From Microbotryomycetes sp. JL201 (lineage: Eukaryota > Basidiomycota > Microbotryomycetes), in the NCBI GenBank assembly GCA_033819885.1, contig JAQYUZ010000064.1, positions 1-61,195 of the forward strand: DNA of 61,195 nucleotides. Reading direction: 5' to 3'. Shown in pieces: positions 322-61,195 of the stretch. A program made the translations under genes and the position numbers. The notes beneath the pieces were generated by a model that was not told the origin of the DNA, searched no databases, and saw only the letters and a program-made list of their open reading frames with translations. Each line of letters starts with the position of its first letter. The first letter of the stretch is position 1.

Positions 322-1400
322 ATGACCTCAACAAGGCGCGAAAAGTCTTTCGAACATTCGTTTGGCGAAGTGATCTGGCTAGCAGAATGCTACCTAGGCA
401 TACTTCATGTGCCGGGATCCGCGACGAGATACTGTCACAATGGCCCTATCGCACTGACCAAACCTCGCGAGCTTCTTCAAAAGGTGAATCGTTGCCGGAT
501 GACTTTCACGTATCTTCGCTTATGCCTGTATCTTTGTGTTTGTTAGGCGTTCAGCTCAATCGAGCGGGGCCACTTTGAAGCTCGCCTCGTGCAGGAAGAC
601 GGGACCTCGTACCGTCTCATCAACTGGAAAGGATTAGAAGAAATGTTTTCTGGTGCATGTAACGCTGCAGCGGCAGGTTTTCTGTCAGATGAAGGTGGCA
701 AGACGCTTCAAGAAACAATCGAGGAGAAACTCGAACTTGCAAAAAAGCAATTCAAGAAAACACCGCGCAATTTGACTCTAGAAGTCAACGTTTTTCCGAT
801 CATTAACCAGATTTGGAACTTGATCAGACGAAGCTACGCGCATGGCGATCCTCGACGGCTGAGGCAAGTGTGGCGCGGCGAGCTGGACTGGATCGCGCTG
901 GTTTTACTCCACACTTGCCAAAGCGCTCTTTTCAAAAGCGGTTTGAGATTGAAGGACACAGATCATCCTACGGAGAACTGGCTGAACCATTTCCGTAAAG
1001 GATTGCGCGAGCAGGTCCAATTGGTGCGTTGGCGGGATCAGTTGGCAAACGAAACTAAAACTTTGACCCAAAATGCCGTACGCAGGTGATCAGCACTTCA
1101 GTGCTCACACCAGAAATGGTAGACTTGTTCAAAGAGCAAGCCTTGGAGCATATTGACGCAAATAAGGCGACTCGCAACGCCAATTACGACGTCAAACTCC
1201 AAAAGCACGCGGAAACATTGAAACTCGCTTTGTCATCTGGCGCGGCAGCGGCTGACGAGACTCAACACTTTTCCGAAGCGTTGATTGGACTGTATCAGTG
1301 TGCGCAAGGCGAGCACGGGAGGATCTCGGAAGTGAATTCTCTGGGAATATTTCATCCTGCAGCTCGTGAGCAGCTTCAACGTGCTCGCGTTTGGATGTAG
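322..1400 (+). CDS. Member A of the Trp-landmark module family (two modules)
   Basis: Three exons, about 315 residues: 322-483, 547 to about 1022, and about 1086-1400. The ATG at 322 is the first in frame. Module 1 opens with GEVIWLAECYLGI and closes with PIINQIWNLIRRSY. Module 2 opens with GELDWIALVLLHTC and closes near EALIGLYQC. The tail NSLGIFHPAREQ-like segment, ending RARVWM just before the stop, matches the tails of members 8-60 kb away. Intron 1 (63 nt) falls inside module 1. For intron 2 two in-frame donors (about 1014 and 1023) fit the same acceptor at 1085. No signal peptide or membrane span is visible. It lies 92 bp upstream of ILV3 on the same strand. Function is unknown; I do not recognise the family. 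Confidence 0.6.
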
Positions 1401-1492
1401 CATATCAGAATGGTGCTAAAAGGCACATGTGCAAGGATAATTCGGAATGACTCTTCACAGCCGCGAAGCAATCTCGTTTTAATCCCGTCACC

Positions 1493-4262
1493 ATGTCGAC
1501 TGTAGCGATGCACCGATGTGCGTCGCATATGCGCTTGCAAGCGTCTCGTGCTGGCTCGGCGCGTCGTTTGGTGCAGACGAGCGCACGAGTCAACGCCGCG
1601 GCCGATCAGCCGATGAACAGGTACAGCCGTCTTATCACGTCCGACAAGACCCAAGGCGCCAGTCAAGTGAGTTTGAAAACACTTTTTGCGCTCTTTCGTA
1701 GACTAGACACGACGGCGTTGATGCGTTGTGAGGCCCGCGAGCATTCGAGGCGCTAATCCAACCGCCTCACCATGTGTAGGCAATGCTGTTTGCAACGGAC
1801 GGTATCGACTCTGAATCAGATCTGGCCAAACCCATGGTCGGCGTTGCCAATGTTTGGTCAGTGACATGCGTCGAATTGTGCTCTGCGGCGAATCACGGCA
1901 AAGCTAAATCATCGCATCGATGTACGCAGGTACGAGGGCAACCCGTGAGTCTCAATCAGACATTCCAAGCTTGCCATGAATACTGATTCTGACCTCTCTA
2001 GCTGCAACAAGCACGTGCTCGGCCTCGGCTCGCGTATCAAGGCGTCCCTGCAGAAAGCTGGCTTGACAGCTTACCAGTTTGGTACCGTCGGCGTGTCAGA
2101 CGGCATCTCCATGGGCACGTTCGGCATGAGCTATTCGCTCCAGTCGCGCGACTTGATCGCAGATCAGGTCGAGACGGCAGCCGGTGGCCACTGGCTTGAC
2201 GGCATGGTTACAATCCCCGTGAGTACATGTCTCCACAGAGAGTGTGATGATGGCTGATGTGCCTGTGGTTCAAAGGCGTGCGACAAGAACATGTAAGGCG
2301 GAAAGAGTTTGTCATCCCGCATTTCGCTAACAGTCGCCCCAGGCCTGGTGTTCTGATGGCGCTCGGTCGCCTGAACCGACCTGGACTGATGGGTAGGTTT
2401 TATTGTGGCTGATGAGTGGTCGTCGCTGACGGACGAATCTAGTCTACGGTGGAACGATGCAACCTGGATCTTGCGAGGGTCAGCCCGTGTTGGACGTCGT
2501 GTCTGCGTTCCAGTCGTACGGCAAATTCTTGGAGCAAGGCGCCACCCCGGAGGCCGAGAAGGTGCGATATGACACAGTCAGGAATGCATGCAGGAAAGAG
2601 GGTGGCTCGTGCGGAGGTGAGATATACTAGCGGGAAGCTAAGACACCAAGACTGACTGACGTTTCGCAAACAGGCATGTACACTGCAAAGTGAGTGCATC
2701 GCAAACTCCTGCCTAACAACCTTCCGTGACAAATCGTTCCGTGCAGCACAATGGCCAGTGCCGCAGAGGCCATGGGCATGACCTTGCCAGGCTCGTCGAG
2801 CACACCTGCGGCGTACAAGGAAAAGTTTGAAGAATGCGACTCGGTTGGAGAATACATGTACAACATGCTCAAGCACGATATCAAGCCGCGGGACATTATG
2901 ACGCGCGAAGCGTTTGAGAATGCTTTGGTACGCGCATAGGTGTTGCTCCGTCTGCCACGAAGGTCCATAACTGTTCTCATTCAGGTTCTCACAATGATTT
3001 TGGGTGGCTCGACGAACGCAGTCTTGCACTTGATCGCCATCGCTCACTCGGTCGGCCTCAAGTTGACGATCGATGACGTCCAAGCCGTCTCGGACCGGAT
3101 ACCGTTCTTGGCCGATTTGAAGCCTTCCGGAAAGTATGTTATGGAAGATGTGCATAAGATTGGCGGTATTCCAGGTGAGTGCAACTTGACTCTCGCTGGG
3201 CCTGGCGCGCCTCGCTGATGAACGTGCGGATGCAGCCGTTTTGAAGTATTTGCACCAGAACAAACTTATCAACGGCGATATCATGACTGTTACGGGCAAG
3301 ACTCTAGCAGAGAATCTGGATCGCGCGCCCGATATGCCTCGCGGCCAAGATGTTATTCGACCGCTCGACAAGCCGATCAAGTCGACTGGTCATCTTCGGT
3401 GCGCTTGTGCCAGCGTCTTTCGCTCTTGCAGTTTTTGTTGACTTTGCCGTGCTCCACAGCATCCTCCGCGGCAACTTGGCACCCGGCGGTTGCGTCTCAA
3501 AAATCACTGGCAAGGAAGGCCTCGAGTTCAGGGGCAAAGCCCGCGTCTTTGACAACGAAGACGACGTTGCAAAGGCGATCGAGTCAAAGTCGATCAAGGT
3601 TGGCGAAAAGACGGTCATCATTCTGAGGTACCTTGGCCCGAAGGGTGGACCAGGTGCGTTCACATTGATCGCTCATCGACTACAAGCCCACTGACTTTCT
3701 GTTCTTCGTACCACGCCAAGGCATGCCCGAGATGCTCAAGACGACCAGTATGGTCATGGGCGCCGGACTGGGTATGGACGTTGCTTGCGTTACCGACGGC
3801 AGGTTCTCTGGTGGAACGCACGGCTTCACGGTCGGTCATGTCGTGCCGGAGGCGTTCGAGGGCGGTCCGATTGGTCTGGTGCAAGACGGAGATGTGCGTT
3901 GCGGCGATGTTCTTTAAGGCTGTCGAGCCCAAGTTTAGCTGAACTGATTCATGTTCGCGTTCGCAGGAGGTCTTTATTGACGCTGTCAACAACACGATCG
4001 ACATGAAAGTGTCGGAGGAAGAGCTTGCCAAACGGCGAGCTGCATGGAAGCCAAGGGAGCCAAAGGTCAAGTCTGTGAGTGCCCATGACCAGACGTGGCT
4101 TTGCATATCGACTGCAGCTGACGACGTATCTTCTCAAGGGCACGCTGTACAAATACATCAAGTCAGTATCGTCTGCATTGGCTCTGAGGCTTATTGTACT
4201 GACCTTTTCGCTTGAATAGGCTTGTGGCCGACGCGTCGCATGGTGCAGTCACGGACGCATAG
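1493..4262 (+). CDS. ILV3: Dihydroxy-acid dehydratase, mitochondrial
   Basis: Dehydrates 2,3-dihydroxy-isovalerate and 2,3-dihydroxy-3-methylvalerate to their 2-keto acids, the third shared step of valine and isoleucine synthesis, in the mitochondrial matrix. The first 40 residues are rich in Arg, Ser and Ala and lack acidic residues, as in a presequence. Family signatures follow in order: [36 protein letters not shown] (the Cys residues that hold the iron-sulfur cluster), [21 protein letters not shown] and [14 protein letters not shown]. The gene has about ten short introns, including one that splits the ACDKNM-PGV signature. The length, near 600 residues, is usual. The start is the first ATG and gives a good presequence. 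It ends GAVTDA. Nothing suggests disruption. Confidence 0.93.
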
Positions 4263-4526
4263 ACGTAGTGCATACTCTTATGTTATTCTTGAAAATGTAC
4301 ACTTTGGCAATTTTTTCTGGCTTGGATGTACGCGATGAGAATGCGAGGCAGCCTGCAGCCCGTCGAAACTTGGACAAGCAGGGCTTTGTGTTGGGAAGGA
4401 GTCGCTGGCTCTTTGCATGGCTCTCGGTCTTGTACGAACAATTTTCGAAGGTGTGTGCCGCGCCCGTCAAATTGTCAATTTGAAATAAGCTCGGGCCTCT
4501 CATTGCTCCCACCTGACCTAACGACA

Positions 4527-5235
4527 ATGTCAACCGACACACCACCGTGGCATGCCGCTTTCCCGACACCAAAGTCACAACCCGAGCAAATCAGTCACGA
4601 AGAATTGTACAGCCGGATGAAAGAGAACGGTGGCACAAAGGACTTTGTCGTCGTTGATGTGCGACGGACGGACTTTGAGGTCAGTTGGCGATGCTGAAAC
4701 TTCTTCATAAGCTTTGATCAAGACATTCGAGACTTCTGTTCCGAATTTTGTGGTCTTGAACGGCTGTTTGCTGTCATTTGGAGCTCCACTCGGGCGAGCC
4801 TCAATGCATTGCGCGTTCGCAGAGTCATTTCGCGACCGAACGACGATCAATATGATTGACTTGAGAATTTGCTCGGCAGGACTCTATGGTACGCGGCGCC
4901 ATCAACATCCCAGCTCACTCGTTCTACGAGTGCCTCGACGGGTTATTGCCAATACTGTCACAGTGAGTTTGATACCTCGTTGCCAGTTCAGACTGAGCCG
5001 TTGAACGTGAGATTCTCTGCGGCAATTGCGTGTCAACAGGTTCAAAGACGTCATCTTTCATTGCCAGTCCAGTTCTGGAAGAGGCCCTCGCTGCGCAGGC
5101 TGGTACCAAGACGCGCTCGATGAGCAAGGAATCACTCAAAGTAAAGCACGAGTGCTGACGGGAGGTATCAAGTTGTGGCGACAGACGTACGCAGGCGAGG
5201 ACGTCAATGTCCCGTTGAGCCAAAAATCTTCGTAA
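4527..5235 (+). CDS. Cdc25-like rhodanese-domain phosphatase (Ych1/Ibp1 type)
   Basis: Small single-domain rhodanese of about 150 residues. Exons carry the N-terminal SHEELYSRM and VVVDVRRTDFE segments, then GAINIPAHSFYE, then the active-site region VIFHCQSSSGRGPRCAGWY and the closing VLTGGIKLWRQTY. The loop C-Q-S-S-S-G-R has the C-x5-R spacing of Cdc25 and Acr2-type phosphatases or arsenate reductases rather than the shorter loop of sulfurtransferases. Yeast Ych1 and fission yeast Ibp1 are the nearest known type. Their exact substrates are poorly defined, and arsenate reductase activity is an alternative. Two or three short introns interrupt the gene. It ends about 30 bp from the stop of the convergent ARP6 gene. 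Confidence 0.8.
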
Positions 5236-5264
5236 CTTTATTCTTTACAACATGTTGCCCTTGG

Positions 5265-7956: not shown

Positions 7957-9089
7957 TCATGGGCAACCCCTGCGTGAGCGCGGCACATAGAGTGACAAGC
8001 TATGCGCCGAGATATGAGGCCGGTGTGACTCTTTTGAGGATGGACGAGAAGGGGCGCCCAAGCCAAGGTTCCTTTTTGTCTGGATTGCCAGCCGATTCTG
8101 TAGATGGGCTACATGGTCGCTGTATAGACCCACGAAAAGCCACGACAGCGTCTCCGCTTTGCTATTTTGATCCCAGGATTTGTCTTCTGGACAGTTGATC
8201 CAGTGCTGCCACTCTTTGCGAACGGTTTCAAGGGATTGCTCGTGGTCTCCGTGCTCCGCCTCAGGCAGTTTGGAAGTGCACGCGCTCCAAATGACGTCGA
8301 ACATTTCTTCAGAAGACCACCCATGCTTGTTACGAACTTCAGTCGTTTGGCGAATAATAAACAGCAGTCCCTGCAACATGACCAGTCATTGATGATCCTC
8401 GACAGGTCAGCGCCATCGTTTTCTAACTGACAAGTCTGAAAAAAATTTTCACTTCTTGTAGCATGTCTTCTGTGTGCCTGTCCTTACTGTGTGATTGCAG
8501 TTCGAATAAACGAGCGTGTGTTGCATTATAGATACCGACTGGTACAGCACTTAATGGCGGGCAATGTTCATCAAGAGCCTTGAATACTGCCAAGACGTAT
8601 TGCAATCGCTGGCGCAGCACCCACCGTCCGTACCAATGCCAAGCGCTGAACAATGCTTTCGTAATGTCCGCTTGAGGGATCGAATTTGACTGACTAGCGG
8701 TGCGTATACCTTGCTCAACGTGTGTTTTGACCCACACCTCTGCTGTCCGGTCTGGGATTGGCTTCACAAAAAATCTGATGAGCCCTCGCGGCACGTCTGG
8801 GTCGTGCGGTACCCGAGCCTTGAGCCATTTCTCCACGTATTCGACAACGATCTGGTCGGATTCTTGTCAGAATCAATGTATCAGACAGCCTCGTTTGACT
8901 CACTCGTTGAAAGAAAGAGAGGATAACGTCCATCTCTTTGGTCTTGTGTGGCTCTCCGCTGAGACGTATTTTCAGCGGTTGGATCACTTCTTCTTCAAGC
9001 TGCTTGCTTTCGTGCATGCCATTGCACGCCTGAGCAACTTGCAGCATCCAGAGGCTCCATAGCTCGGTGCTTTCTTCTGAATCATCCAT
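7957..9089 (-). CDS. Family member 1 (two modules)
   Basis: Three exons, about 360 residues, starting at the ATG at 9089 (MDDSEESTELWSLWML). Exon 1 ends in FFQR at a GTGAGT donor. A 54-nt intron leads to IVVEYVEKWLKARV, and a second intron of about 60 nt follows FFRL. Module 1 runs from ELWSLWMLQVAQAC to ALFSAWHWYGRW. Module 2 runs from LQYVLAVFKALDEHC to LSWLFVGLYSDHV. The tail is HSLSLYVPRSR, a shorter version of the family tail, and the stop follows six residues later. The acidic start and lack of hydrophobic segments argue against secretion. This is the last gene of the minus-strand array; the next member starts 450 bp beyond its stop-to-start neighbour space. Function unknown. Confidence 0.6.
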
Positions 9090-9344: not shown

Positions 9345-10536
9345 CTAACAGTATCGATCTCGATAGTGAAGGCGAGCACGAGGGACAAAGACAGCTTTAG
9401 ACAAGCTGTTGGCATTGTGTTGCCGAGTTGCACCCGCCCTTGTTGAATTCGAAAGGACAATCCCAAGATCTGCGCAAATTTTGCATACCTGGTTGTGATG
9501 CTCCACCTGAACGTGGTGACTCCAAATCGCGCCCAAGGACCGCGCCGCCGCATCGAGCGCATGCAGACGTTGTTCTTGACCAAATTGGACTGGCGGAGAC
9601 TCGGTCCAAACAGACCATACAGCCTGAGCATTATCTTTGCTAGGGAGGTTCGCTACTTGATGTCTTCCAATTGTGGCCTGCAAAGCGGACACCATAGCGG
9701 ACCAATACTCCTCAAAGACGGCGGGTTGACTGGGATTTGGTTCGCGGCGCATCAGATGCTGCAAGCACTGCATGCCAGTCACAAGGTCAGAAACAATTGG
9801 GAATAGTCTAATTATGCACCCCTTACACATTTGAAAGCAAGCGCACAGCTCTGCCAATTCTTCTCTATAGCTTCCTTTGATTTGGTTTGTACAAGCATTC
9901 CAAGCTCCACCTCTTCTTGCAAAGTTTGGGTCACAGATGTCTTCGTTCCTGGAAGTGGGTCTTGTTGTTCAGACAACAGGGTCTGCAATATGGTTATGAT
10001 CCTTGTGATATGCGCCGGCGCTAGAGTTTTCCCTCTTTGCTGCAGTTTTTCAAACACACAGCGGATCCATGTTGCTTCACCGACCAGTGCCCAAATTTGA
10101 TAGATATGCCAGGTCTTAGCGCAGACAACAAGAAGAGACTTGAAGTCGAGGCGCCGAACGCGAGTTCGCACGTAATCGCGTGCTCGAGGATCAGGAATTG
10201 CGATGATCAGAGCATCAATGATTGGATCCAGGTTCTCATTTTGACCATGCCTTTTCCATTGTTCGAAAATGCTGTGGATGTCCTGAACGGACACCCGCAA
10301 AGTCAGCCTTCGGTCACTGAAAAGTCAGGCAAACTCACGGATTGAAACTCACGTGCTGCTCCACGTAGAGATTCATCTGAATGCTCAGAGCTATAAAGCC
10401 ATGTTCTCAGCTTGTGGACGCTCATGGGAATAAACACAGGCACTGAAACAGAGTTTTCGGGCCCAACGAGCCGCAGCTTTTCGATCACACGAAGCATCCA
10501 TAAAGCATGCAGCTGGTTCTCCGTAGCGCTGTCCAT
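9345..10536 (-). CDS. Family member 2 (two modules)
   Basis: Three exons, about 375 residues. The start is the ATG at 10536, giving QLHALWMLRVIEKL as the opening landmark. Exon 1 ends at EFQS. Exon 2 begins DIHSIFEQWKRHG, carries the first module's close KSLLVVCAKTWHIYQIW, and at once opens module 2 with EATWIRCVFEKLQQR. After a 61-nt intron, exon 3 carries FEEYWSAMVSALQ and the close SLGAIWSHHVQV, then the tail NSLSKAVFVPRARLHYRDRY. All joins keep frame and use GT-AG borders. It lies 255 bp upstream of member 1 on the same strand. Function unknown. Confidence 0.62.
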
Positions 10537-10857: not shown

Positions 10858-12093
10858 TTACAGAGTATGTCTCCACACAGCAGGCTTGTACGGCCATGCT
10901 CGTGCACGGGGAACGTGCGACATTTCAAAGACGCGTGGATTACGTCCAACAGGTTCCATTTCGTGGTCGACGAAAGCCGAGAGGTCGGGCACGTCTAGGT
11001 CTGCAGAGAGAGTTTGTTGAGTGATTGCCAGTCTTTGCAAGTCGGTGATCGGCACGCACGAGGACCATAAAAGGAATGACGGTGCCATATAGTGAGCACA
11101 ATCTTTGCAAGGTGCTCGAATTTTCGCGCGTGACTCCAGTCCGTGCAAAGCTTGAACGTCCGCAGCTGCATCTTGAGTGACGTGACTAGGTCGGCTCGTC
11201 TGTGAAAGTCTGGCAGTGAGTCAAGTGCCGCTTGAACGATTTTCTTGCGGCTCTTGAATGCGTCTGGGTCGCGGGAGGATGCAATCATCTGACAACATGT
11301 TGTCAGCATGTGTGCATCAACTGGGGAAGATTGTTGACTTGCATTACGCAATACAGCTTGTGTTGTTTCAATGTACGGTGCCACCATTCTGTATTGCTGT
11401 CGGACGGAAACGTCCGTGTCAAATGAGCCGAGAGCCACGAGAAAGCTTTTGACAGCATTGAGCATTGATAAATGATCGTAGTTCAATACGCGAAGCAAAC
11501 GACGATTACTGATGGCGTTCAACGTTTTCGCAAGCCAGGCGACATGATTGAGCGCATCAAGGAACGGTGGCTCGATATAAGGCGCGAGATCGGGAGCAGG
11601 CGGGCCTGCGCACCAGTCAGCGGATCAGTTGGTAGATTTATCAAATTTGACTTACGTGGGTCTGCCTCTTCAAAGCATGACCACACTTGCACTACGAGGT
11701 TGCTCAAGTGCTCTTTGATGTCGGCCGCAAGGGGCCAGCGCATGTCAAAGTTCACCAATACTCGGTCCATCTTGTCGACGAGGTTTGGCTGGCCCACGTA
11801 CTGTGGCAGTGAAGCTATGCAGACGAGAAAGATTTTCTTGGCATCGAGTGTGCGCTGCTGCAATAGACTCTGCACCAAATTCAGGGGTAGTTCTGTACGC
11901 AATCAAGTAGTCTCACGTCGTGTAGCATGCTTTCCATCTCGCGCTGACAGTTCTTGACGTCATGGCCTGCGATGCGAGTCTTGACGGCCTTGCTGACAAC
12001 GAGCCACGACCGGTGCGTCTCGCTGGATGGCGCTTGGCACCTGTTGATCACTCTTCCATAGTACAGCAGCTGCTGCATGGCCATGAGCGACAT
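10858..12093 (-). CDS. Family member 3 (two modules, extra tail intron)
   Basis: About 360 residues in four or five exons. The ATG at 12093 gives MQQLLYYGRVINRC as the opening. Exon 2 (SLLQQRTLDAKK onward) closes module 1 with LSNLVVQVWSCFEEADP. A 49-nt intron leads to DALNHVAWLAKTLNAI, a textbook module-2 opening, and module 2 closes with LAKIVLTIWHRHSFYG. A final intron precedes a tail exon with LDVPDLSAF and then MSHVPRARAWPYKPAVW. An in-frame intron of 66 nt near 11,290-11,355 is likely by analogy with other members but uses a weak GTATTG donor. Function unknown. Confidence 0.58.
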
Positions 12094-12320
12094 CGCAGGC
12101 GCGAACGCGGACAACAGAAGACACAGTGCCCGCGTCCCGCCGTTGGACCAGCCCGGAGCGTTCGCTAGGAGTCTAACATTTGTCAAATATGACTTTATAC
12201 ATTCGGCCCGAGCACGAGTAGCGCCATAGAATGCGTCGACGAGGCAGAGCAAAGACGCGAAGCTAACGGAGTAAGGACATGACACATTCAATTAATTGCC
12301 AGCTTGTCGGGGATCACCTG

Positions 12321-12436: not shown

Positions 12437-13304
12437 CTACCGGCACAGCACTAACGACAGTCTGAAAGTTTTCTCCGCTGCATTACTGTAATCACTCGCG
12501 GAGGCGCCTCCAGACGGCAACACGAGACGCGGTTTGGCGAGAACCGGGATGCAATCGTGCAAGACTGTTGCTGTCATACGTCCCTTGTCGCTGCCGCGAG
12601 AGCTTGAAGGACTGTCGCCTGGCTTCTGAACAATCTCAAACAACTCTCTTTTCTTGTGCAGTTCCCACTTGGCAAAGTCTGGTGCACCAAAGATGCCTTG
12701 ATAGTCTGAAGATCGCAGTCAGACGGGTTTTAAAAACGATCAACAGGTTCTCACGTGCCTTCTGATGGGGGCCGGACAGACAGTGCTGCCTCGCTGAACA
12801 AAGACAGTAGGTGCACTGCAAGCGTGCTAGATGCAGCCGGAGCCCTTCGCTGGCAAATCGTATGGAGACGGTCGCGAGTTGGCGGGCTAAGCGGCAATGC
12901 TTGAACGAAAGCAGACCAAAAAAGGTCAAAGTTGTGCGGCGTTGGCTCTGTTTCCCTGATGACCTGCAGCACCCAGTCCTTAGCTGAAAGAATAAGTAAG
13001 CTTTTCCGCTGCCAGAGAGACCAACATGATCTAAAAGCAGACGTGCAGCTGTCATTGCTGCTTCTATGGCAGTGATACGAGCTTCTCGTGCCTTCCTTTC
13101 CGCATTCTGGTGCTTGGGATGGAGATGATGTCCAAGGGCAAACTCCTTGCTTGTGATGTCGTCTTCTTCGTGGCACAGTTCGATACTGCTCTCAATCTTG
13201 GCCCGCAACTCGCCTAAGTGTTCGGTCTCGACATTTGTGTGGAGCTTTGACAAAGCTGTGTAGATCCACAGTACCTCATTGACCGCTCGATTACGGCCTT
13301 GCAT
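12437..13304 (-). CDS. Family member 4 (one clear module; C-terminus uncertain)
   Basis: The ATG at 13304 gives AVNEVLWIYTALSKLH as the opening landmark. Exon 1 runs to LLLDHV. An intron of about 42 nt leads to AKDWVLQVIRETE, and the module closes with LAVHLLSLFSEAAL. Unlike other members, exon 1 holds an added charged stretch (HHLHPKHQNAERKAREAR). The last exon is unclear. One frame stops early after a short basic peptide. The better-looking frame (WELHKKRELFEIVQK, then PVLAKPRLVLPSG) cannot be joined without breaking phase at the visible splice sites. So the stop at 12437 is provisional, and this copy may be damaged or may use a splice I missed. Function unknown. Confidence 0.42.
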
Positions 13305-13451
13305 GCGTTCGAAGCTGAGGGCAGCCGAGAGGGGTGTGAAGAAAAAGCCTTCCCACCGCGGACCCGTGTGTGTGAGGAGTCTTGCGCAACTACGGCGGAA
13401 TGGCACTTGTAAAAATCCAAACACAAGCAGCGATTTGCTGGCCCTGAGCAG

Positions 13452-14170
13452 CTACACTGATTCAGCTCCCTGCCATACTTGGGGATAGCTGGACCCAAAC
13501 AGTCGACGACCAAACGGCCAGAATCGAGTGGCCTTTTTTGGGATAGGCGGTGTGTTTGTGCCAAAGTGTGATAGTGAGTCGGGCCCAAAGACAGGTTTCG
13601 GTGGCCGTAAGGCTAGCGTATCTAGAAAGCGGATCAGAGTGAGCTGCAAATTGTACTAAAAAAGCCGGATCACGGGTGATTCACGTTTGTCATATTGGGA
13701 GCAGCTGAGAACAAAAGGTTTCCATATCTGAAGTAGATAGTGAATTTTCTCTGCAGAACTTGAATCCCTGGGCTGCTCTCGCTGGCAGTACTCAAAGAAT
13801 GAGTTTTTTTCGATGCGGCCATGAGGCGGCAGAGTGCGCAAGAAACTTGTGCGCAAGTTGTCAAAGGGCACTTTGATGACGAGTGTGTCCAGTATCTGTA
13901 TCTCAAGTCAGAGGTGCCTGAGCACCGCCACTGGCAAACCCTCACCTTTGCAACGTCATCATGGCACTTGAGCAGCTCGAGAGCCACAGTCTGGGTAGCT
14001 CTGGGACCACGCGCATCAAAGGCAGTTGTAATGCGACGCTCCAAGGAAGCCAGCGAGCTGCGACTGGCAAAATCCAAGTTTTGCACGCCGAGATCCAGGC
14101 AAGCGCGTGTTGCCTCTCGCAACCAAAGCATGCAGTGGAGCTGACACTCTTCCGATCGGTACAATTCCAT
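13452..14170 (-). CDS. Family member 5 (single-module form)
   Basis: Three exons, about 205 residues, the shortest apparently intact member. The ATG at 14170 gives QLHCMLWLREATRAC. Exon 1 ends KCHDDVAK at GTGAGG. Exon 2 (ILDTLVIKVPFDNL onward) closes the module with IHYLLQIWKPFVLSC. A 61-nt intron (GTGAAT...TCTAG) joins QYDK to the tail exon, which ends RFWPFGRRLFGSSYPQVW. That tail keeps the family's P-x-x-R and final V-W spacing. Having one module plus the tail shows that the module, not the whole protein, is the unit gained and lost. Function unknown. Confidence 0.55.
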
Positions 14171-14378: not shown

Positions 14379-16505
14379 TCAGAAATTCATGTACCGCTGT
14401 TGTGGAATGAACTGAACCGAACCGGCCATAGGCTCTGTGCGCATTCGAGGCTCAGGATGCCTGAGAGTGTGCGTGTGTAAGCTTCTTTCTTTGGGTGGAC
14501 TGCTGATCCGACCGAGCTCTACACATTCTGATGCGTCAATCACAAATCTGGGTGTACGACTTTGATTCGTTTGCTTACCGCCCTTGTGGCGCAACAGGAC
14601 CACGTACCAAGACCATATACCGAAAAGATCACGTGCAAAACTGATTGAATCTCCAGTTGTACTGTACTCGCGTTCGATGCGCCTATCTGATCCCGGCAGC
14701 TCAGCCAAAAAGCAAGACAAATACTGTCGAGGTGTATGACGATGCTGATGATCCTGGAGCTCGAAAGCCTGCAAAACCGTCAGCGAAGCCTTGGCTTATA
14801 ATAATATGAATTTATTATCTGAAAAAAAAAATAGAATAAAATACAAAATCCCCGCTTACATTTGAAACGATTTGATGGCACTCGTCACGGATTCGCTCCA
14901 AATTCAGGACCTTCTTTACTGCAATGCTTTCGAGCTCGTTAAGAGCAAGCAGGAAACTCGGCTTCTGGCGCTCAAATTCTTCATAGGCACGAGAGACGGC
15001 TCCTTGCAGACTTGTTTCGGCCGTACCGAGCACTCGCAGCTGTGCGTGCTGCATTGCGACACACTTTTTAATGGCCTGCCAAAGCCAGGTGATTTCGTGT
15101 AGAACCATGGCAGGTGATTGCCCTTGTGGGTGAAATGTTCCAGGCACCTCATAATTCGCAGCTTGCAGGCTCAAGCTGTTGTTGCTCGGTTCCCACGGCA
15201 GTTCTTGAAGCACGTTGTAGACCTCGTGATCTGTATCCCCCTTGTCAGCGCACACTGGTTCTCTTTTTTTTTTTTGTTCGGGCTTCGAAACTCACAGCGC
15301 GGATCTGTTGAAATAATGCCGTACGCCGTGTTCCAGATTGTGAGCAGCGCGTCACGCATGAATGTTGCAAGCTGCGACTCGGCGACCTCTTGCAAAGATG
15401 TGGTGAGATTGTGACAGAGTTGCCCAAGATCAGGGGCTTCATAATGATCAGTGGGGTCCAATCGATTGTTTAGAGAGCGTAAGAAGCATTCTAGCCACGG
15501 ATGCCATTGTTTTCTGAGATCTTGAGACTGCTTTAGAGCCTGTCAGAAATGTTAGTACTTGTTTATGTCTCACTGGAATCCGCAGAACCAACCACCAAAA
15601 GGGTTTCTCTGACATTGTCCAGTTCGTGCTCAATCATTGGTATCGCATCTTGCACGATGTCAGAGCGCGCGGAAAGGCGGTGTGTACCGCATTCTGCCGC
15701 GAAAGCAGCTTCGATGTGATGACGCAGGCTGACGAAAAGGTCGCAGGTCATGCGAGCTCCGCGCACGTGAAGACAGTTGCTCAAAGCGTCCAAAATCCAG
15801 ACCATTTCATGCAGTGACTTTGACATGATCATTTGATGGCGCGGAGGAATTTTGACGGATGGAATCTGGCTCATCGCTCTCGAAGCTGCGAACAAATTGT
15901 CTGCTTGCACGATCAGTCTCGTGTGCTGGGCTTTTCAAAGTCAGCACACACCTTTGCTATTCCTTGCTTTCTTCACGTCTAACATATAAATTGACCACAC
16001 TTGCTCGAGCCACATTTTCATGTGATCATCGTGATGTATGTCATAACCTTGTACCCTTGTCGCCTCGTCTCCTTGTCGCATCCGAGAAGCGTAATCTGTT
16101 GTCAGACCGGGTAATTGACGAACAAACACCATTTTGCATTTATGCATGACAGTCATCTTGTCGTAGGCATAGTGTACTATCTAAGGAGTACACGTGAGCT
16201 TGATCAAGCTGATTTGCAAGCCAAGACTGGCTCACGCTTTGCGCGTCTCCGCGACAAAGATTAAGCCAGAGCGTCAACTTTTCTTGGCTTATAGGGTGGC
16301 GGACTGCGTTTTCTGCTTCCCTTGCGGTCGAGCATGCCAGATCTAAGACACTGTCAAGGTGCTGCATTCGTCTACCACCGATGATGGCACCGGAAACGTT
16401 GCGGCAAGCAAAAGTTGCTTGCCGTAGCCACAGCAGCTCATGCATGACTGTCCATCGAGGCAGCTCGGTGGTACGTTCCGAGTCTGATCCGCTGTCGGAA
16501 GCCAT
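14379..16505 (-). CDS. Three-module family member
   Basis: About 590 residues in six exons, the longest member. The ATG at 16505 starts a Ser/Asp/Glu-rich leader (MASDSGSDSERTTE). Module 1 runs from MHELLWLRQATFAC to LEQVWSIYMLDV. Module 2 runs from LHEMVWILDALSNC to ALLTIWNTAYGII. Module 3 runs from LHEITWLWQAIKKC to LFGIWSWYVVLL, and the tail is GSVQFIPQQRYMNF. Joins that keep phase were found at about 15,946/15,894 (51 nt), 15,597/15,540 and 15,293/15,212. An intron of about 100 nt near 14,860-14,770 has a long T tract. The three openings LHEL, LHEM and LHEI are far closer to one another than to other members, suggesting internal module duplication. It is the first gene of the minus-strand array. 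Function unknown. Confidence 0.58.
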
Positions 16506-25293: not shown

Positions 25294-26255
<962 letters not shown>

Positions 26256-37076: not shown

Positions 37077-38444
37077 ATGTGGGTGCGCAATGCGGCACTG
37101 CAGCATCTGCTCTGGTACAACAAACTTGTTCCACGATTCCAAAACAAGCCATCCCACTCATCACGGACAGCCGACCGCATGGAGCTCGTCCTTGTACATG
37201 CCATCAGAGTGGCTTCAGTGACTGACCCGCACGAGCAACAAACTCAACCTGACACAGAACTTGGTTTCCTGGAGGAGCGCGCCTCCGACATTTTCCGAAA
37301 TGTTGAGCTGCAACACACTGTGCGTGCAAGCTGAGAGCTGACTTGCATAGTTCCAAGGGTTGTCGTTCGCTTGGCTCGGTCAAAGAAACGTTTTCTGAAC
37401 GCTGCTGGGTCGCCTTTCTTGCGCTTCCGGACGCGAATACACTGAAAACTGTCAACATCTTCTGCTTCCTCGCCTCAGAAAGGCCGATCACGAGAGATGT
37501 TCTCAAGACGATCTTGAGAAACTTTAACCAGAACTTGTTGATCAGATCTGGCAGGACTTTGTTTTACATAGGCGAGAATGTCAGTCCCAGCTGCAACTTC
37601 CATCTTCGATTAATTCCTCACAGTCTGCGAGTGTCTCTAGCTCTCCGAGCACCAGACATGGAAACTCTGCTTGCTGTTGACGCTGGGCTCGGACACTTTC
37701 AATATCGATTTCAGTGGATGGTCTGGTTATCCAAGACGGCTCGAGCTGTGTCTGCTTTAAAGTGGAACAGACTGTTCTCGTTCAAGGTTCACCTGAACGA
37801 AATTGATGATGCATGCATTCGCGCCATCCAGTGGACCAAGAATGTGGCTCACGAACCAGAATGGGCAGCGGATATTCGAGATCCCGGACTCGGATTTGAC
37901 AGGGACTTTGCCAAGGTCATTTGCAAGGGCAAGCAGGCTCTTGACAAGGTAAGTCTACATATTGATCGCCTGCCCCCCAAAAAAAAAGAAGCCGGGTGCT
38001 CATGTTGATCCACAGATGCTTGATGACTGCATGACATTGAAATCCCGTTCAGAAGAATTACTTCAAGCTGGTTTGGCCTGTCTGCCGCCGCCTTTGCAGC
38101 ATGAGCCATACAAGGACGAAATTTCTCAGATCGCCAGTACGGGCCTGTCGTCTGCATTGACTGCCAATGTTACGGACGAGGAAAGGCACAAGCTTATCAA
38201 ACGTGCCGTCCTCAAGATTTGGCAACAGACTAGAGTATTTCGGCACGTGCCAGAGGTACAGCGTAAGCACAACTTTGAACTTGTTCAGGCCCACAGTTGA
38301 CCTTGTGTGTTGGTCTCGACAGGATGCTTGACGATGCCCGACTTGCGACATTTCTGGGACATCCAGGCTTCTCGCGAGCACGCCAACTTGCACGTGTCAA
38401 ATCTTTATCCAATCTCTCGACGCCCAAATAGAGCAATGGACTAG
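37077..38444 (+). CDS. Family member P1 (two modules)
   Basis: Four exons, about 390 residues. The ATG at 37077 gives ALQHLLWYNKLVPRF as the opening. A short intron (38 nt, GTGCGT...CCAAG) leads to GCRSLGSVKETF, and module 1 closes with DVLKTILRNFNQNLL. Module 2 opens with FQWMVWLSKTARAV. An intron of about 67 nt after QALDK leads to MLDDCMTLKSRSEE, and the module closes with LIKRAVLKIWQQTRVF. A last intron (GTAAGC...GACAG) joins the tail exon, which ends LYPISRRPNRAMD, a looser version of the family tail. All joins keep frame. It is the first of two tandem plus-strand members between the phosphatase-like gene and MTR4. Function unknown. Confidence 0.55.
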
Positions 38445-38719
38445 CAATAGAGTTGCTTGACGACGTCCCGTCAACAACAACGTGAAAAGATTGAGTTTGA
38501 GCCTTGCAAGCGAATTGCGCGACACGCAAGATGTGTAAATCTACAGACTCCTTGCGGGACCGACAGACCGGTTGGAACTCAATTGTCAACTGTCATGTTG
38601 GTGAAATCCGAGGCTGTGCGGATGCGGACCCGTGCAACAATAGCTCCTCAAGGAGGAACAAAGCTATGCAACTGGACAGAACGGCGGCACCGCTTTCTAT
38701 CACACTCGAGCCACTTCAT

Positions 38720-39564
38720 ATGACTGACTTGCCTCACTATGTGATCTTACAGCTGAGGGAGCTCGAGTGGTACGTCAAGCTTATGGAAGAGTTTTCCGAG
38801 GTGCCTGGGTTGGCTGGCACGTGCGCACCCATGAGTTCAAGACGCCCAAGACAATGCACTGTAGACAAGATTGGTTGAGGTGTGTCAGAGACGGGTTCAG
38901 CCTGCCGAAGCACGACAGGTTGCAATTCGCAAAGCATTGCACAAGCGAGTGCAAAGATCATGGGACGAAATGTCCAACTTACTTGTCGCGATCGATTCGC
39001 ATCGCCCTCCGTCAATCACAGACTTTGAGACAAAAGTGTGTGCCGGTCTGATGGGTGCTCGAAACATTATGCGCGGGGTGAGTGCCAGGATAAAAGTCAA
39101 TCGTCCCAAAGGCGCCAGGCGCTCACGTCTCGTACACGACTTGATAGGCAATCTTCTGCTTAGACCATGTCGTAAAATATGCAAATATGTACTTTGACGT
39201 CGCGACCGCATGTCTGCCCCTTACTCGCTTGACGTCAGGAACTCGAGATGCAATCAGTCACAAGGGTCGACATGAAATGCTCGGCAAAAAGGATCCAAAC
39301 GCAAGTCTGGAACTACCGATTCAGTTGCTCAACATGTGGCGCGATTTGAAAAGACGCCGTCAGGTGAGCTTTCCATTTTTTTTTTTTTTTTTTATTTTTT
39401 TTCCCTTTTCACTTGAGGAATGTGTCCAGCTTTGGAACTGGACGTGCCCGATCTTTCGGGCTTGCTATTCGTATACGCCATCATCATTGGCACGCAATCT
39501 CTCTCCCGTGTTTGTGTCACACGCACGAGCGTCGAAACGGTCCGCCGTGTGGCGTCGAGAATGA
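38720..39564 (+). CDS. Family member P2 (two short modules)
   Basis: Four exons, about 240 residues. The ATG at 38720 gives LRELEWYVKLMEEFSE. The next exon (VCQRRVQPAEARQ onward) closes module 1 with LHKRVQRSWDEMSNLL and leads into DFETKVCAGLMGARN. Exon 3 closes module 2 with LPIQLLNMWRDLKRRR. The last intron carries an 18-T run followed by more T-rich sequence. The tail exon ends NLSPVFVSHARASKRSAVW, one of the best matches to the family tail. In another frame the start of this tail exon reads LDVPDLS, the same words as the start of member 3's tail exon, so the frame in this exon may have shifted since the two were related. Function unknown. Confidence 0.5.
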
Positions 39565-52186: not shown

Positions 52187-52290
52187 GTAGAAAACAATTG
52201 CAATACGCGGGAAAAAAGAAACAACGCGTTATCTTACAAGCATGGTTTACTTTGAATCACCTGTCCTGAGATTGAGACGGGACAAGCTTG

Positions 52291-55200: not shown

Positions 55201-55311
55201 AACAACGAGTGGCAAAGCGAGTGCCGCCGGACTCGACTTGCCCGAGAGCAAGCTCGCGAGAGTCGAGGTGGTCGTTTGAGCCGTTGCCAGCTTTGACTGC
55301 GAAGGTGCCAT
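52291..55311 (-). CDS. Peroxisomal ABCD-type half transporter (Pxa1/Pxa2 type)
   Basis: Imports long-chain acyl-CoA into peroxisomes for beta-oxidation, working as a dimer. The start at the ATG at 55311 precedes one hydrophobic span and a Lys-rich stretch. The membrane domain opens with the ALDP-family block [20 protein letters not shown] and has [59 protein letters not shown] and [20 protein letters not shown] (the EAA-like loop). The nucleotide-binding domain has Walker [33 protein letters not shown], the signature VLSGGEKQR, Walker [13 protein letters not shown] and the ISHRPSL switch His. It ends [10 protein letters not shown]. About eight introns. I cannot decide between Pxa1 and Pxa2; a heterodimer partner is not in the window. 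Confidence 0.9.
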
Positions 55312-55943: not shown

Positions 55944-57158
55944 TCAAGCTGACCACACAGGCGCTGTGCTGGCACGAGCGCGCGGCACGAGAACAAACTG
56001 TCTACGAGCCAAACTTGATTGGCGTCGCGACTGACGTCCGGGGGAAGCGGTGGCATGCTCTTGTGCGGCGATCTGAGGCACCCAAGTGACAATGACAGAA
56101 TGATAAACGTCGTACGTTTCCGTGAGCGCTTGTTTGAGGTTCTTGAGAAGCTTTTCGTAGTAACCTCGATGGAGCTCGTACTGGTGATCAAAATGCATTG
56201 CGTCATGCTTTGACATTTCACGAGCAGAAGCGCTCGTTGCAAAGACTTGGCACAACTGCAAACAAAGGTCTGCGTGAACTTTCTTGCGCCAGATGTTGCC
56301 CGCTAATTTATTGTTGTGGCGCAGAAAAGGTTCTGGCAGGGTGTCGACAAGCGCTCGGACGATCTGTCTGAGGTCGTGCAAGGTTTCCTTTGTCAATGCC
56401 TGCGCAGTGTTTCAGTCAGACAATGTATACACGCATAGGAAATGCTGTGGCCTGCCTGATCCAGCACGTCGTGAACATTTGAACGAATAGCAGCACCTGA
56501 CAAGCGGCCAGTGTACATCTTATGGCCTAGTAAAGCCTTGACTAGATGGGCGAGCCACGATTTCATGCCTTCCAACGGGTTGGAGACAATGTCAACCATA
56601 ACAGAATTTGAAGTTTGGGCCGCCATTCCTTCTTGCAAAGAGCCAGCGATCGAAAGAAGCTGCCATGTATCAGCCAGTGTCTCCGCAATGTGCTTGCGAG
56701 TGACAGCATTGCTTGTGTCCCAAAATCCCACCGTGGCAAGAGCAGTGCATAAGCGCGTTTGCACCTCGTCCTCGAGCATGATGCGAAATTCAAGCGAAGA
56801 ATTGCCACCACACAAAAGGGCTGACTCTACCACAATGCGCACTGTCTCGTCTAGATGCAAGAGGTTACTACCTTGAAGCACCTTCGGGGCTGCAGTGATC
56901 AGCCAATACCGCAGTTTAGCCGCGCGCCTGTCTCACGTGTTTTAAAACCTGCTGCAGCCTCATTTTGTCCGACAAATCGATTTTATTCTTTGCGCGTATG
57001 AGACTGAGCAATGGTGACAGCGCCGGCTCGGGCTCGCCCGGGGAAGACGCAGCAGAAATTCGAGTCTCACGTAGCCTGTCCACAACGTTCTCAATCCACG
57101 CAGCCTCTGATGGAAGTTGAGGCACTAGATCGCCTGGACGACACCTATCCTGACTCAT
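55944..57158 (-). CDS. Family member 9 (two modules)
   Basis: Three exons, about 375 residues, starting at the ATG at about 57158 (MSQDRCRPGDLV). Module 1 opens with EAAWIENVVDRLRET, passes an intron after LQQVLKH, and closes with HIAETLADTWQLLSI. Module 2 opens with GMKSWLAHLVKALLGHK, passes an intron after VLDQAG, and continues LRQIVRALVDTLPEPFLR, RKKVHADLCLQLCQVF and the close LTETYDVYHSVIVTW. The tail is FVLVPRARASTAPVW. The LPEPF segment recurs as LPEPV in member 12 and LPSVN in member 10, marking these as a closer sub-group. It is the last gene of the second minus-strand array. Function unknown. Confidence 0.62.
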
Positions 57159-57340
57159 GACGTGGAAGATTCAAGAGAAACACGGGCAAAACAGGACTGC
57201 AAGAGTATCATGGGCGCCGCGGAGCAATCGATCTCTCAGGAGCTGGCTTCAAATTGTCTGCGCCTTCGGTGCAGAGGAGAAGGGGAGGCACCAAGCAGGC
57301 ATGAAATTGTATATTTACCAGGTCAGGCTACTCCCAGTTT

Positions 57341-57777
57341 CTATGTTATCGAACAACATTTGTTCCATGCGAGAATCCGGCTGAAACGCGCTTGAGGGAC
57401 AAATGTAGCGAGGTCATGGCCCAGAACTTGATTTGCTCTCGGGGACGTTCTCGCATGACTATGTTCCGGGATCCATCTCACAAGCACGCTTTTGTAGCAC
57501 AGCCACGTCTCGGCAAGTACTTGCTGAACCAGCTTGATCCTGTTGCCTTGCTGAACGAGGGCATGGCAAATCATGAGCGCAAGGTCGGCGTGAAAACCCT
57601 AAGCATTTTGTCGGCCTGCTCCATGTAGAAGCTCGCGTGTATTGTCGTCAGAATGTTGTCAATTGTGATCTGGGCGTTTGCGCTTGAAGCAATTGTCAAG
57701 TCGATTAGGTCAGCAGCAGCTAGCTGTGTCACCACGCTTTTGCTCCATGCTGTTTGAGACGCGATTTGAGAGCTCAT
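57341..57777 (-). pseudogene. Truncated family member 11 with a frame change
   Basis: The ATG at 57777 begins a single short module: SQTAWSKSVVTQLAAADL as opening, then SFYMEQADKMLRVF. At about 57,592 the reading frame changes by one, and the other frame continues FHADLALMICHALVQQG, the close LAETWLCYKSVLVRW and a perfect tail LATFVPQARFSRILAW. No GT-AG pair of reasonable size explains the change, and the LPEP-like part present in its neighbours is missing. So this copy has probably lost its first module and carries a frameshift, although a sequence error or unseen splice is possible. Protein-level likeness to member 9 is clear at FHADLAL versus VHADLCL. Confidence 0.45.
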
Positions 57778-57927
57778 GGGATGAGAAGACAGGAGAAAAT
57801 GATATGTGCAGATACTCCGCGGCACACTGTTCCATCAGGAGCCGAATTTGAAGAAAACAGAAAGCTGGACTTCCTGCACTGCCAGCTTGTGCCCTGAAAA
57901 AAATTGTTTCAATTGAAATGCAGATGT

Positions 57928-59046
57928 TCATTTCCACAATGTGACTAAGTTGACCTGCGCGCGTGTTTTTGGCAGGAACACAGACAAGCTGTTTACTTCT
58001 TTTAAAGGAGGCGTAGAGTCCTCCAAAGCTTTGATCGTGCGAATATAGGCTGGCCATGTTTCCAGCAGAGCCGCGCGCAGTTTTGGAAGCCGCTTGCCTG
58101 ATGAGTTTGCCAAAATTGCTGAAATTACGTGGGCCGCTACTTTGTTGAAAACGCGATCGCGGCATTCCGGAAAATTGACACTGGGCAGGGCATTGACAAA
58201 AATGGTCAAAAATAAGCTTGTCTGGTGCGCTTGTAGCTGATGAACAACCTAGAAGCAACATTGTCAACATTGATGGAGATGCCGTGCCATTCTTGAGGTT
58301 GACCGACCAATTTCAGCGTTTGAGCAATTTCAGCCTCCGACATGGCCACAATATGGGTTTCAGACGGCCAGTCTTCTGGCTGCCAATGCATATGGCCCAG
58401 TAACGTTCCCATGATTCGTACAAGCCAGGCAGCTTGACCTTGGTCCCCGGCTCCTTCAGGCTCCAAAAAAACTGGATTGCTTTGTGTGCGATTGCTCATC
58501 TTGACTCTTCTTCTGGCAGCCAAAAAATAATGCCAGACATTTCCCAGCACCTTGAACACTTGTTCTTTGAGCTGTGGGTCATCAAGCCGGAGATTTTCCA
58601 TCTCGATAAAGCTTGGATAACGCCCATTTTGCACAGTCTGAGTCGTCAGCGCCCGAATCAAATCGTTCCGGAGAGCTCGGAGAAATACGAGGTGAGTCTT
58701 GAGATCATGAGAGGGAAGAAGCACTTCCAAGCCAGAAGCTGTTCGTGAGGCCGCTCTGACGGTTGTTTGCATAAGTCCCTGAAGGTGACAATTTCAAATT
58801 GTCAGGTGTGAGCACTCGCTCCTAAAGACTCCTTGTCCAACAAACATTGTGCAATAGGCTGTCAAGTATGTTCTGACTATGCTCGTCAACCAATTTTTGA
58901 TGATGTGCTTTCACTGTTATGTTTTCGAGTGCGCGCAGCTCCTCGGTCGAAAATTTTGCAAGCTTGGCTTGTTCAAAATTGCCTACAACCCTGTTGATCC
59001 ATACCACCTGCTCTGGCAAAGCTTCGGTGAATCTCATGTCTTGCAT
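57928..59046 (-). CDS. Family member 10 (two modules)
   Basis: Three exons, about 350 residues. The ATG at 59046 gives LPEQVVWINRVVGNFEQAKL. Intron 1 (about 67 nt, GTTTGT donor) follows DSLLHN. Module 1 closes with QVFKVLGNVWHYFLAARRR. After a linker with PVFLEPEGAG, module 2 opens with QAAWLVRIMGTLLGHM. A 41-nt intron after NVDN leads to TSLFLTIFVNALPSVNF and RVFNKVAAHVISAIL, and the close is LRAALLETWPAYIRTI. The tail NSLSVFLPKTRAQVNLVTLW is the best match to the family consensus. Intron positions match member 9 residue for residue in both modules. Function unknown. Confidence 0.65.
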
Positions 59047-59239
59047 GACAGCGAGTGAAAGTCGCAAGGGTGAAGTGAAAGCGACCGTACATGACGAGTT
59101 CGCACAATCGGATGCTAGAAGATCTCCTCGGAGCAGTGCAAGGAGTCAGGCTCAACACAGCCGTACTTTGCCATGGTTTGGAAGTGAATCTTGAATGCAA
59201 GACTGAAGAACAAGTTGCCAAGAATCAAAGAATACTAAT

Positions 59240-60344
59240 CTATGACCAAATTTCAACGGCACGAGAGCGCACACGGGGCTCAAAGACTGACACTGCGTGC
59301 CCAACGGAATTGGACAGAGCTGTATTGACTCTTTTAGATTGTTCCGCCTTTTGGCTCCCATTGAGAATCTTGGTATACTTTTCCCATGTCGCACGTGCCA
59401 CGTTTCTGATCACGCTGATCGGCTCGGCTGGGTTGTGTGGGGTGTTTGAGGGCTTGGGTCCGCGTGTAAGCACCTCCACAAACTTCCATGCCATTTTTCC
59501 TTGCAACTGTGCCCTCCAATATAAACTGAGATGTGGCGGTTTGGGAACTGGCTCGGGCAGGGAATCCACCAACAACTGGCAGACTTGCATAGTTTCATTG
59601 AGCGGCATTTGGCTTAAAACCTGCAAAAATATGGAGAGTTGAGTATCGCACCAATTAGTCATACTTGGTCAAGAAGTGTTCAAGGTGTAGAAGTGCTCGA
59701 AGCTTACAGCATCAAACGTGGGTACGACTTTGCCCAAGCTCACCGGCTTACGCGAAACCTTATGAAGCTTGTCAATCTCTGGGATGACAAGGCGGCGCCA
59801 ATCTGTCTCGCCGGTAGCAGTGCTGTTGCTCTTGTGCTTTGTGCCTGACTGGACTGTCTTTGACGCTGACGTGACTAGCTTCCAGGTGGAGCACAGAGCA
59901 AGTACCACTTGGCCGCGGAGACGCTCTTTGTGAATGTCAATGCTTGTGCTCAGTAATTTGGCCATATTCGTAGCTAAAGCTGCCTTGACCAGGACAATAA
60001 CGCTTGAGATGTCAGGTTCAGTTCCGTAATCGACAGTCGTGACGTGTTCCAAGCAGATTGTCATGATCTGAGGCAATTCTTCGATCTTGAAGCTTGAAAA
60101 CGCCTGGCAGACAGTCGAGCCAATTCATCAGCACCACGGTCACACTTTGGACCAGTGTTGTCCTTACAATGTGAAGAACCTCGCGCGCCCTCTCAATGTC
60201 CTGATATTTTATAACAGAGACAGGTTTCTTGATCCCCTCCAGTTCGTCAACGAGCTCGTGCGCGCGGGCATCGCTCAGCAGCGAATTAATCCGAGCCCGA
60301 TGAGGTCCTTTCTGCGAGATTTTCCTTCCGGCTCGATGCACCTC
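59240..60344 (-). CDS. Family member 12 (two modules, start uncertain)
   Basis: The clear part has three exons. The first found ends INSLLSDARAHELVDELEG, ERAREVLHI at a GTAAGG donor. The second starts AFSSFKIEELPQIM and closes module 1 with VVLALCSTWKLV. Module 2 opens near TDWRRLVIPEIDKLHK. A third exon holds VCQLLVDSLPEPVPKP, YWRAQLQGKMAWKFVEVL and the close ARATWEKYTKIL. The tail is AVSVFEPRVRSRAVEIW. Exon 2 begins AFSS, as exon 2 of member A does 58 kb away. No ATG or Trp opening was found in frame upstream of 60,344, so a 5' exon, perhaps across the duplicated segment at 60,400-60,457, is missing. Function unknown. Confidence 0.5.
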
Positions 60345-60399
60345 GGACTTTTCTTGTTCCAGGAGTCAAGACCAAAGAACGGAAGCGGTGCAAAGTCAA

Positions 60400-60457
60400 T
60401 TGAGCGGAGACACAGCTCTTGAATCATCTTGAGCGGAGACACAGCTCTTGAATCATC
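60400..60457. repeat. 29-bp perfect tandem duplication
   Basis: A 29-bp unit beginning TTGAGCGGAGACACAGCT occurs twice without a gap (60400-60428 and 60429-60457). In the minus-strand frame through it, it would repeat MIQELCLRS. It lies where the missing first exon of family member 12 should be. A 29-bp unit is not a multiple of three, so the duplication would shift any coding frame. Confidence 0.9.
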
Positions 60458-60616
60458 CTGTTTCTGTGCCTTGTCACAAGAGTCAGGTGCGCGCGTGCTC
60501 TGTCCCGTATGCACATTTCTTGACGTCAGTTTACAAGTGAACAGCAGAACAAGCTCACAGTACTCCCCTCATTTTTGCGAGATTGTTCTGCACGATACCA
60601 CAGCTTGTATTGCATC

Positions 60617-60904
60617 TCAGTTCTTCCAGACATTGATCGCGGCCAATCTTGCGCGAGGGACTAGAACAGAGTCACTCCTTCTCAGATGTAGGCTGTGAGC
60701 AGCATTTACCTTGGCCAGCCTGTTGACTAGCTGACGATAGGCAGGCCACAGGTCTTTCCAAAAAACAGTACAAAGAGGATTGAATGTCTGATTAGGTTGA
60801 AAGTGAATGGTCCAGGACTCTGGCATGGAATTGGCATTTGTGATTGCTTGAAACAACCGATCGGCCATCATTGAGTGCAGCTCAATCGGCCAGAGAGCGT
60901 TCAT
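60617..60904 (-). pseudogene. Family member 13, C-terminal half only
   Basis: A short frame from ATG at 60904 (MNALWPIELHSMMADRLF) runs to the close VFWKDLWPAYRQLVNRL and the tail SDSVLVPRARLAAINVW, stopping at 60617. It corresponds to the last exon of other members: the second half of a module plus tail. No upstream half was found on the minus strand. Instead a plus-strand family gene begins at 60903, so the two start codons overlap. I read it as a truncated remnant, although NALWPIELHSMM could by itself serve as a Trp opening for a very short protein of 95 residues. Confidence 0.4.
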
Positions 60905-61195
60905 GCGCGAGGTTTTCAGTCCGATTGGGTCTATACAGGAGCTTGCCAAGCATGACTACCGCGAACTCCATCAAGGGACAGCTGTCACCGGCGACTCTGC
61001 CCGTCTTGATCATGAGCAAGAGGTCAAGTGGATGCGTGCCGTTGTGATTGCGTCGCCACTAGAAAACAAGCCTCGTGACCCAGCGCGCTTGCCAGAAATC
61101 CCTCTGGAGCGTGCTTTTCAAAATGTCATCCACCAGGTCAGCAGGAATTTTCATATCTCGTGAACAGGACGATGACATTTTGAAAAGCACGCTCC
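60903..61195 (+). CDS. Family member 14, 5' part, cut by the window end
   Basis: The ATG at 60903 (MREVFSPIGSIQELAKHDY) opens a frame with the landmark EQEVKWMRAVVIASPLE, much like VVWINRVVGNFEQ and AAWIENVVDRLRE in members 10 and 9, and ends FQNVIHQ at a GTCAGC donor at 61136, the usual place of the first intron. The remaining exons lie beyond the window. It is the only plus-strand member of the right-hand group. The sequence after the donor runs into an inverted repeat that may be an artefact, so nothing beyond 61,135 should be trusted. Confidence 0.45.
61106..61195. repeat. Perfect 25-bp inverted repeat ending at the last base
   Basis: Bases 61106-61130 (GGAGCGTGCTTTTCAAAATG onward) are the exact reverse complement of 61171-61195, with a 40-base spacer. 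The right arm stops at the last base of the window, and the left arm lies inside the first exon of family member 14. A fold-back of this kind at a contig end is typical of a chimeric read or an assembly turn-around. A genuine palindrome cannot be excluded. Confidence 0.85.

Follow-up and report, generated by a model that had tools for sequence, protein, structure and literature searches.

Family loci and gene models

Microbotryomycetes sp. JL201 is a basidiomycete yeast of the Pucciniomycotina, and the window analyzed here is one entire contig (C61, JAQYUZ010000064.1; 61,195 bp) of its 17.15 Mb, 92-contig assembly. The contig very probably carries a genuine family of soluble, helical proteins ~320-370 amino acids (aa) long; a typical gene encodes, in three exons, two homologous modules followed by a constant, short tail. 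We count at most 13 family loci (A1, B1-B5, C, D1-D5 and E) in four groups, fewer than the 'at least 15' proposed in a first-pass annotation of the same sequence. The groups span 0.3-1.4 kb (A), 8.0-16.5 kb (B), 37.7-39.6 kb (C) and 55.9-61.2 kb (D), together ~16.5 kb or 27% of the window by span. That annotation also put the modules at roughly 25; our own count is 21 module strings, with D1, D5 and E as additional fragments. Most genes have two modules, and the C-terminal tail is found in nine loci. Gene models come from a small Viterbi program and hand splicing, with module borders and landmarks chosen by us or by that program.

303-1400, plus strand: gene A1, 322 aa; exons 303-527, 595-1023 and 1086-1400; two modules and tail SLGIFHPAAR
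7957-9089, minus strand: gene B5; exons 9089-8904, 8851-8432 and 8370-7957; two modules and tail SLSLYVPRSR
9345-10536, minus strand: gene B4; exons 10536-10339, 10282-9827 and 9767-9345; two modules and tail SKAVFVPRAR
10858-12099, minus strand: gene B3; exons 12099-11917, 11869-11656, 11605-11060 and 11000-10858; two modules and tail FEMSHVPRAR
12754-14170, minus strand: gene B2; first module in exons 14170-13946 and 13895-13674, second module 13290-12754; no clear tail
14379-16505, minus strand: gene B1, 586-aa open model; three modules (HELLWLRQA, HEMVWILDA, HEITWLWQA); tail candidate GSVQFIPQQR, not significant
37697-39564, plus strand: gene C; first module in exons 37697-37948 and 38016-38262, second module in exons 38750-38820, 38870-39077, 39148-39363 and 39430-39564; tail candidate LSPVFVSHAR, not significant
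55944-57158, minus strand: gene D4, 364 aa; exons 57158-56937, 56881-56433 and 56367-55944; two modules and tail RQFVLVPRAR
57341-57777, minus strand: D5; single short module and tail DLATFVPQAR; provisional splice model
57928-59046, minus strand: gene D3, 327 aa; exons 59046-58846, 58778-58249 and 58180-57928; two modules and tail SLSVFLPKTR
59240-60121, minus strand: gene D2, partial model; exons 60121-59708 (provisional start) and 59620-59240; two modules and tail AVSVFEPRVR
60617-60955, minus strand: D1, fragment; closing helix and tail SDSVLVPRAR; provisional upstream exons
60903-61195, plus strand: E, weak fragment; possible opening helix VKWMRAVV; by sequence, a gene here would run off the contig

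Six models (A1, B3, B4, B5, D3 and D4) and the partial model of D2 read through two modules and then the tail without an internal stop, and in these seven the GC content of first codon positions exceeds that of second positions, as in housekeeping exons. Both introns of A1 (67 and 62 nt) are in phase 0, and the second module of B3 is contained in one exon. Intron 1 of D4 requires an AAG acceptor, and the donors in D3 (GTTTGT and GTTGTT) are weak. Other models are provisional: the second module of B2 joins two open frames with no checked splice, gene C has a provisional start and a provisional join between its halves, B1 may be more than one gene, and the fragmentary D1 and E overlap on opposite strands.

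Module landmarks, C-terminal tail and exon plan

Landmarks are shared across the loci, the tail by nine of them and a gene plan by five. In six-frame translations of the four regions, modules open with a Trp helix and close with (I/T)W-x-x-Y, and the three-part plan of Trp opening, this close and a C-terminal tail described in the first pass has its landmarks at the places given for them. An additional landmark, LP, lies ~28-80 aa ahead of the closing Trp. Tyr takes the place of Trp in the first opening of B3, at both landmarks of the second B5 module and in the last closing of D4. An unsupervised expectation-maximization (EM) motif search given no position information (21 strings, 20 shuffles each) recovered the opening block at width 14 (z 13.3) and the closing block at width 10 (z 6.2), each present in 16 of the 21 strings by our own reading of the output lists; at width 20 it returned a mixed motif (z 4.1). 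We also scored 20 modules with hidden Markov models (HMMs) built without any module of the tested gene, using 3,067 open reading frames (ORFs) as background. Ten outscored every background ORF, eight of 11 in group B, including both modules of B4 and both of B3, and two of nine elsewhere (D3a and D4b). The group B modules are thus clearly related to one another.

The tail follows the consensus S-L-x-V-F-V-P-R-A-R, with mostly a Trp 6-8 residues further on, close to the stop. When each tail was scored with a matrix of the other eight, eight of the nine had no more than four of 29,870 ORF-end windows above them, and the weakest, that of B3, had 67; the left-out tails averaged 11.4, while 200 sets of shuffled cores averaged -5.7 and never rose above -1.5. 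Selection of the cores relied on a P-x-x-R anchor, which makes the test partly circular. The tail candidates in C and B1 were exceeded by 73 and 694 windows. Scanning 20 other contig starts (200 kb, including 10 kb of N) gave 13 matches of at least 9 bits, the best at 14.7; the nine window tails reach 20.9-26.6 in that scan with a matrix trained on them, and 3.3-21.2 when left out, only two then lying above the best background value. The tail is the most conserved part of the proteins, with a mean pairwise identity of 0.40 over 11 tails (including the weak C and B1 candidates). Hand-picked openings (16) and closings (20) reach 0.21 and 0.20, and 135 aligned module columns 0.12 (0.06 unaligned). 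We found no repeat of at least 22 bp between copies (seed 14). Since the aligned module columns are so dissimilar and no such repeat is present, the duplications would be old or the divergence extreme.

A three-exon plan is common to A1, B4, B5, D3 and D4, with exons of 186-225, 420-530 and 253-424 nt, the middle exon running from the last part of module one into the first part of module two. Among the mid-module introns, 15 of 18 are in phase 0, compared with 12 of 36 introns of neighboring housekeeping genes modeled by the same program (p 1.9e-5 if the neighbors set the base rate, 0.004 if it is taken as one half). Such an intron occurs in groups A, B, C and D and is missing from the second module of B3, and 11 of the 17 with a computed distance sit 19-23 aa before LP or the residues taken as its equivalent.

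The proteins are probably helical and soluble, judging from their hydropathy. In ten models joined end to end, the hydrophobic periodicity has its maximum at 100 degrees (z 6.5), z being -1.8 to 1.4 at 140-180 degrees; single models give z of 0.9-4.3. This is in line with the helical character first proposed. The highest 19-residue Kyte-Doolittle (KD) hydropathy is 1.5, agreeing with the reported lack of a membrane span. No N-terminal signal peptide, the mark of a secreted effector family, was found in the ten models, D2 and C among them with provisional starts, by simple hydropathy rather than a dedicated predictor (highest 10-residue KD mean 1.52).

Several results count against a single family with these gene models. 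Half of the 20 modules, most of them from groups A, C and D, were not recovered by the held-out HMMs; the number of background ORFs scoring at least as high is 1 for B1b, 6 for B1c, 12 for D4a, 28 for C2, 40 for D2b, 52 for A1b, 168 for B5b, 176 for D2a, 178 for D3b and 1,672 for A1a, the worst, a module in which no opening was identified. D3a, counted as recovered, was outscored by one of 200 of its own shuffles. Aligning the 11 group B modules with the 10 of groups A, C and D by hhalign gave 19 columns and a score of 13.85, which is not significant, with one of 30 shuffles higher (16.64) and the reversed control at 8.70. First against second modules aligned over just 20 columns (score 15.60, with no shuffles run). 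The reading frame does not stand out by codon choice, whose correlation with housekeeping genes is 0.868 in frame, 0.856 and 0.809 in the shifted frames and at most 0.859 antisense. As first spliced, B1, B2 and C were interrupted by 13, 2 and 5 stops, and we replaced these models; the exons later used are open in B1, in the first B2 module and in both halves of C. Since borders, landmarks and several splice sites were picked by us or by a simple Viterbi program, introns and landmarks were not counted blind. The profile test of the modules thus came out in favor of half of them, while the other half and the cross-group profile alignment did not follow. The bridge from groups A, C and D to group B rests more on the tail, the gene plan and the introns than on module sequence.

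Database searches and genomic setting

Among the members scanned, we found no convincing family in Pfam (six full-length models and 16 modules), NCBIfam or PHROGs (six models), which bears out the earlier statement that no named family with this plan is known. Single-sequence searches fail to link members, as had been anticipated for pairwise comparison, and a search of 5.8 billion proteins with D3 by itself gave no relative at E <= 10. Neither viral contigs, searched with one module, nor prokaryote genomes, searched with B5, yielded a relative, and titles and abstract openings of open-licence literature yielded no description of such a family. A profile of six models, run against the 8,000 candidates sharing most words, found only B5 as an annotated protein of comparable length among the best 8,000 scored. 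This suggests that the other five profile members are absent from the protein database as comparable-length proteins, and since only B5 was found, relatives in sister yeasts may also be unannotated. The B5 locus is deposited as the JL201 hypothetical protein OIV83_006147, with the same exon 1 and the same starts of exons 2 and 3. The deposited model of 278 aa has another intron 2 donor and another end, skips part of the second module and lacks the tail, and its record names no family or function. The label 'undescribed' therefore has to be qualified for this one protein.

At the genome level, protein queries with D3 and with two concatenations leaving out B2b, D1, D2a, D5 and E matched their own loci in this contig only, apart from one match on contig C13, and these queries have low sensitivity, most cross-matches between known members also being missed. 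The exception (C13:264618-264782, 25% identity to D3, E 0.5) is probably due to chance. Two consensus queries gave eight matches at E <= 10, all on this contig, in parts of D1, D2, D3, D5, C, B3 and B4, and missed most known members, so that diverged copies may exist elsewhere in the genome.

The rival that fares best sees in the modules an already known alpha-solenoid fold (HEAT, Armadillo, MIF4G or similar), diverged beyond the reach of sequence comparison and new only as a branch. We regard this as possible though doubtful. It agrees with the helical periodicity, with single sub-threshold Pfam matches (Armadillo-like, E 0.041; GCN1 N-terminal, E 0.065) and with the match of our first module profile, around the LP helix, to the MIF4G region of human UPF2 (PDB 4cek; E 2.3e-4, 24.8 bits). 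That match is weak: a profile of reversed sequences also scored up to 20.6 bits (E 0.006), UPF2 vanished altogether with a cleaner half-module profile of 18 rows (best E 0.18), the six-gene profile gave a best E of 0.61, and the MIF4G family is absent from the Pfam matches of the models and modules scanned. We therefore dropped a UPF2/MIF4G identity, and no PDB relative survives controls.

Family genes are interspersed with housekeeping-type neighbors, named by eye from translations, which we take to be ILV3, an actin-related protein, HMG-CoA reductase, histone H3, a bZIP factor, an MTR4/SKI2-type helicase, a URB1-like protein and an ABC transporter. The region at 29.5-33.5 kb was considered as a family member and rejected for want of an HMM match; it includes a minus-strand gene model of 478 aa (31771-33504) that does not match the module HMM. 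A perfect 29-bp tandem duplication (60400-60457) lies upstream of D2. The contig starts with 75 C (1-75); among 20 other contig starts, one is poly-G (C11) and one poly-C (C19), and such homopolymers are perhaps assembly ends rather than telomeres. At the other end, a 35-bp inverted repeat (61106-61140 and 61161-61195, 89% complementary, 20-base spacer) is possibly a foldback artefact. Positions 1-10000 of contig C13 are all N.

Competing explanations and a possible role

A second rival, which we consider unlikely, is that the loci are relics of an old tandem array, under relaxed selection and partly decayed, with no present function. The very low identity between copies would fit, as would the provisional models for B2, C, D1 and D5, the weak D3 donors, the AAG acceptor in D4 and the recovery of just one of six profile members as a comparable-length protein among the best 8,000 candidates scored. 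Decay sits poorly with seven models free of internal stops (D2 partial), with B1 open over 586 aa and with the persistence of the tail and the Trp landmarks.

Less probable still are two or more unrelated helical families, one being group B and the rest A, C and D, alike only through generic amphipathic Trp helices. The non-significant hhalign score across groups leans this way, together with the concentration of eight of the ten clean held-out recoveries in group B. The same tail nevertheless occurs in A, B and D, the three-exon plan unites A1, B4 and B5 with D3 and D4, the phase-0 intron extends to all four groups, and D4b and, less cleanly, D3a are recovered by HMMs without their own gene. 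Gag capsids have two helical domains per protein, a plan that these proteins resemble, and yet domestication of a viral or retroelement capsid or Gag-like protein is very improbable given no Pfam match of note in six full-length models or 16 modules, none in PHROGs for six models and no relative in viral contigs for the one module scanned.

The observation that opened this work is partly confirmed: landmarks, modules and the tail plan stand, and it is weakened because there are fewer loci, no opening was identified in the first module of A1 and several gene models are provisional. The first-pass interpretation is likewise partly supported: helical and soluble character, the lack of a named family and the failure of single-sequence searches agree with it, and fast evolution and tandem expansion are conjecture. 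What remains is an orphan family beyond chance, largely as first seen, with fewer loci and weaker cross-group module links. Because a constant tail sits on strongly diverged modules, we can propose a mechanism of recognition plus docking, though only tentatively and at odds that we put clearly below even. The conserved Trp, LP and IW positions would be the contacts by which the modules pack as a helical scaffold, its remaining surfaces would have diversified to bind different partners, and the tail would dock every member to one constant partner. Such a layout would combine variable recognition with a constant effector, perhaps in non-self recognition or the control of selfish elements. A real family joined to this mechanism is, as a whole, our best explanation, and we hold it with somewhat less than even confidence.

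A more far-reaching version, which is improbable, posits a fungal family for intracellular recognition of a kind not seen before, with a new fold for its modules: diversified helical modules would bind variable targets and the tail would couple all members to one effector, with the family kept in a single genomic neighborhood. An excerpt of PMC4986451 describes fungal NOD-like receptors as intracellular families linked to non-self recognition. The likeness to what that excerpt describes is one of general idea only, and the JL201 family members scanned have no Pfam match to a NOD-like receptor domain.

Most of the family seems invisible to protein databases, B5 alone being annotated at comparable length among the best 8,000 candidates scored. 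Should arrays as diverged as this one be widespread among basidiomycete yeasts, they escape orphan-gene catalogues. With the modules otherwise unrecognizable, the constant tail offers a handle both for finding further members and for pulling down a possible shared partner.

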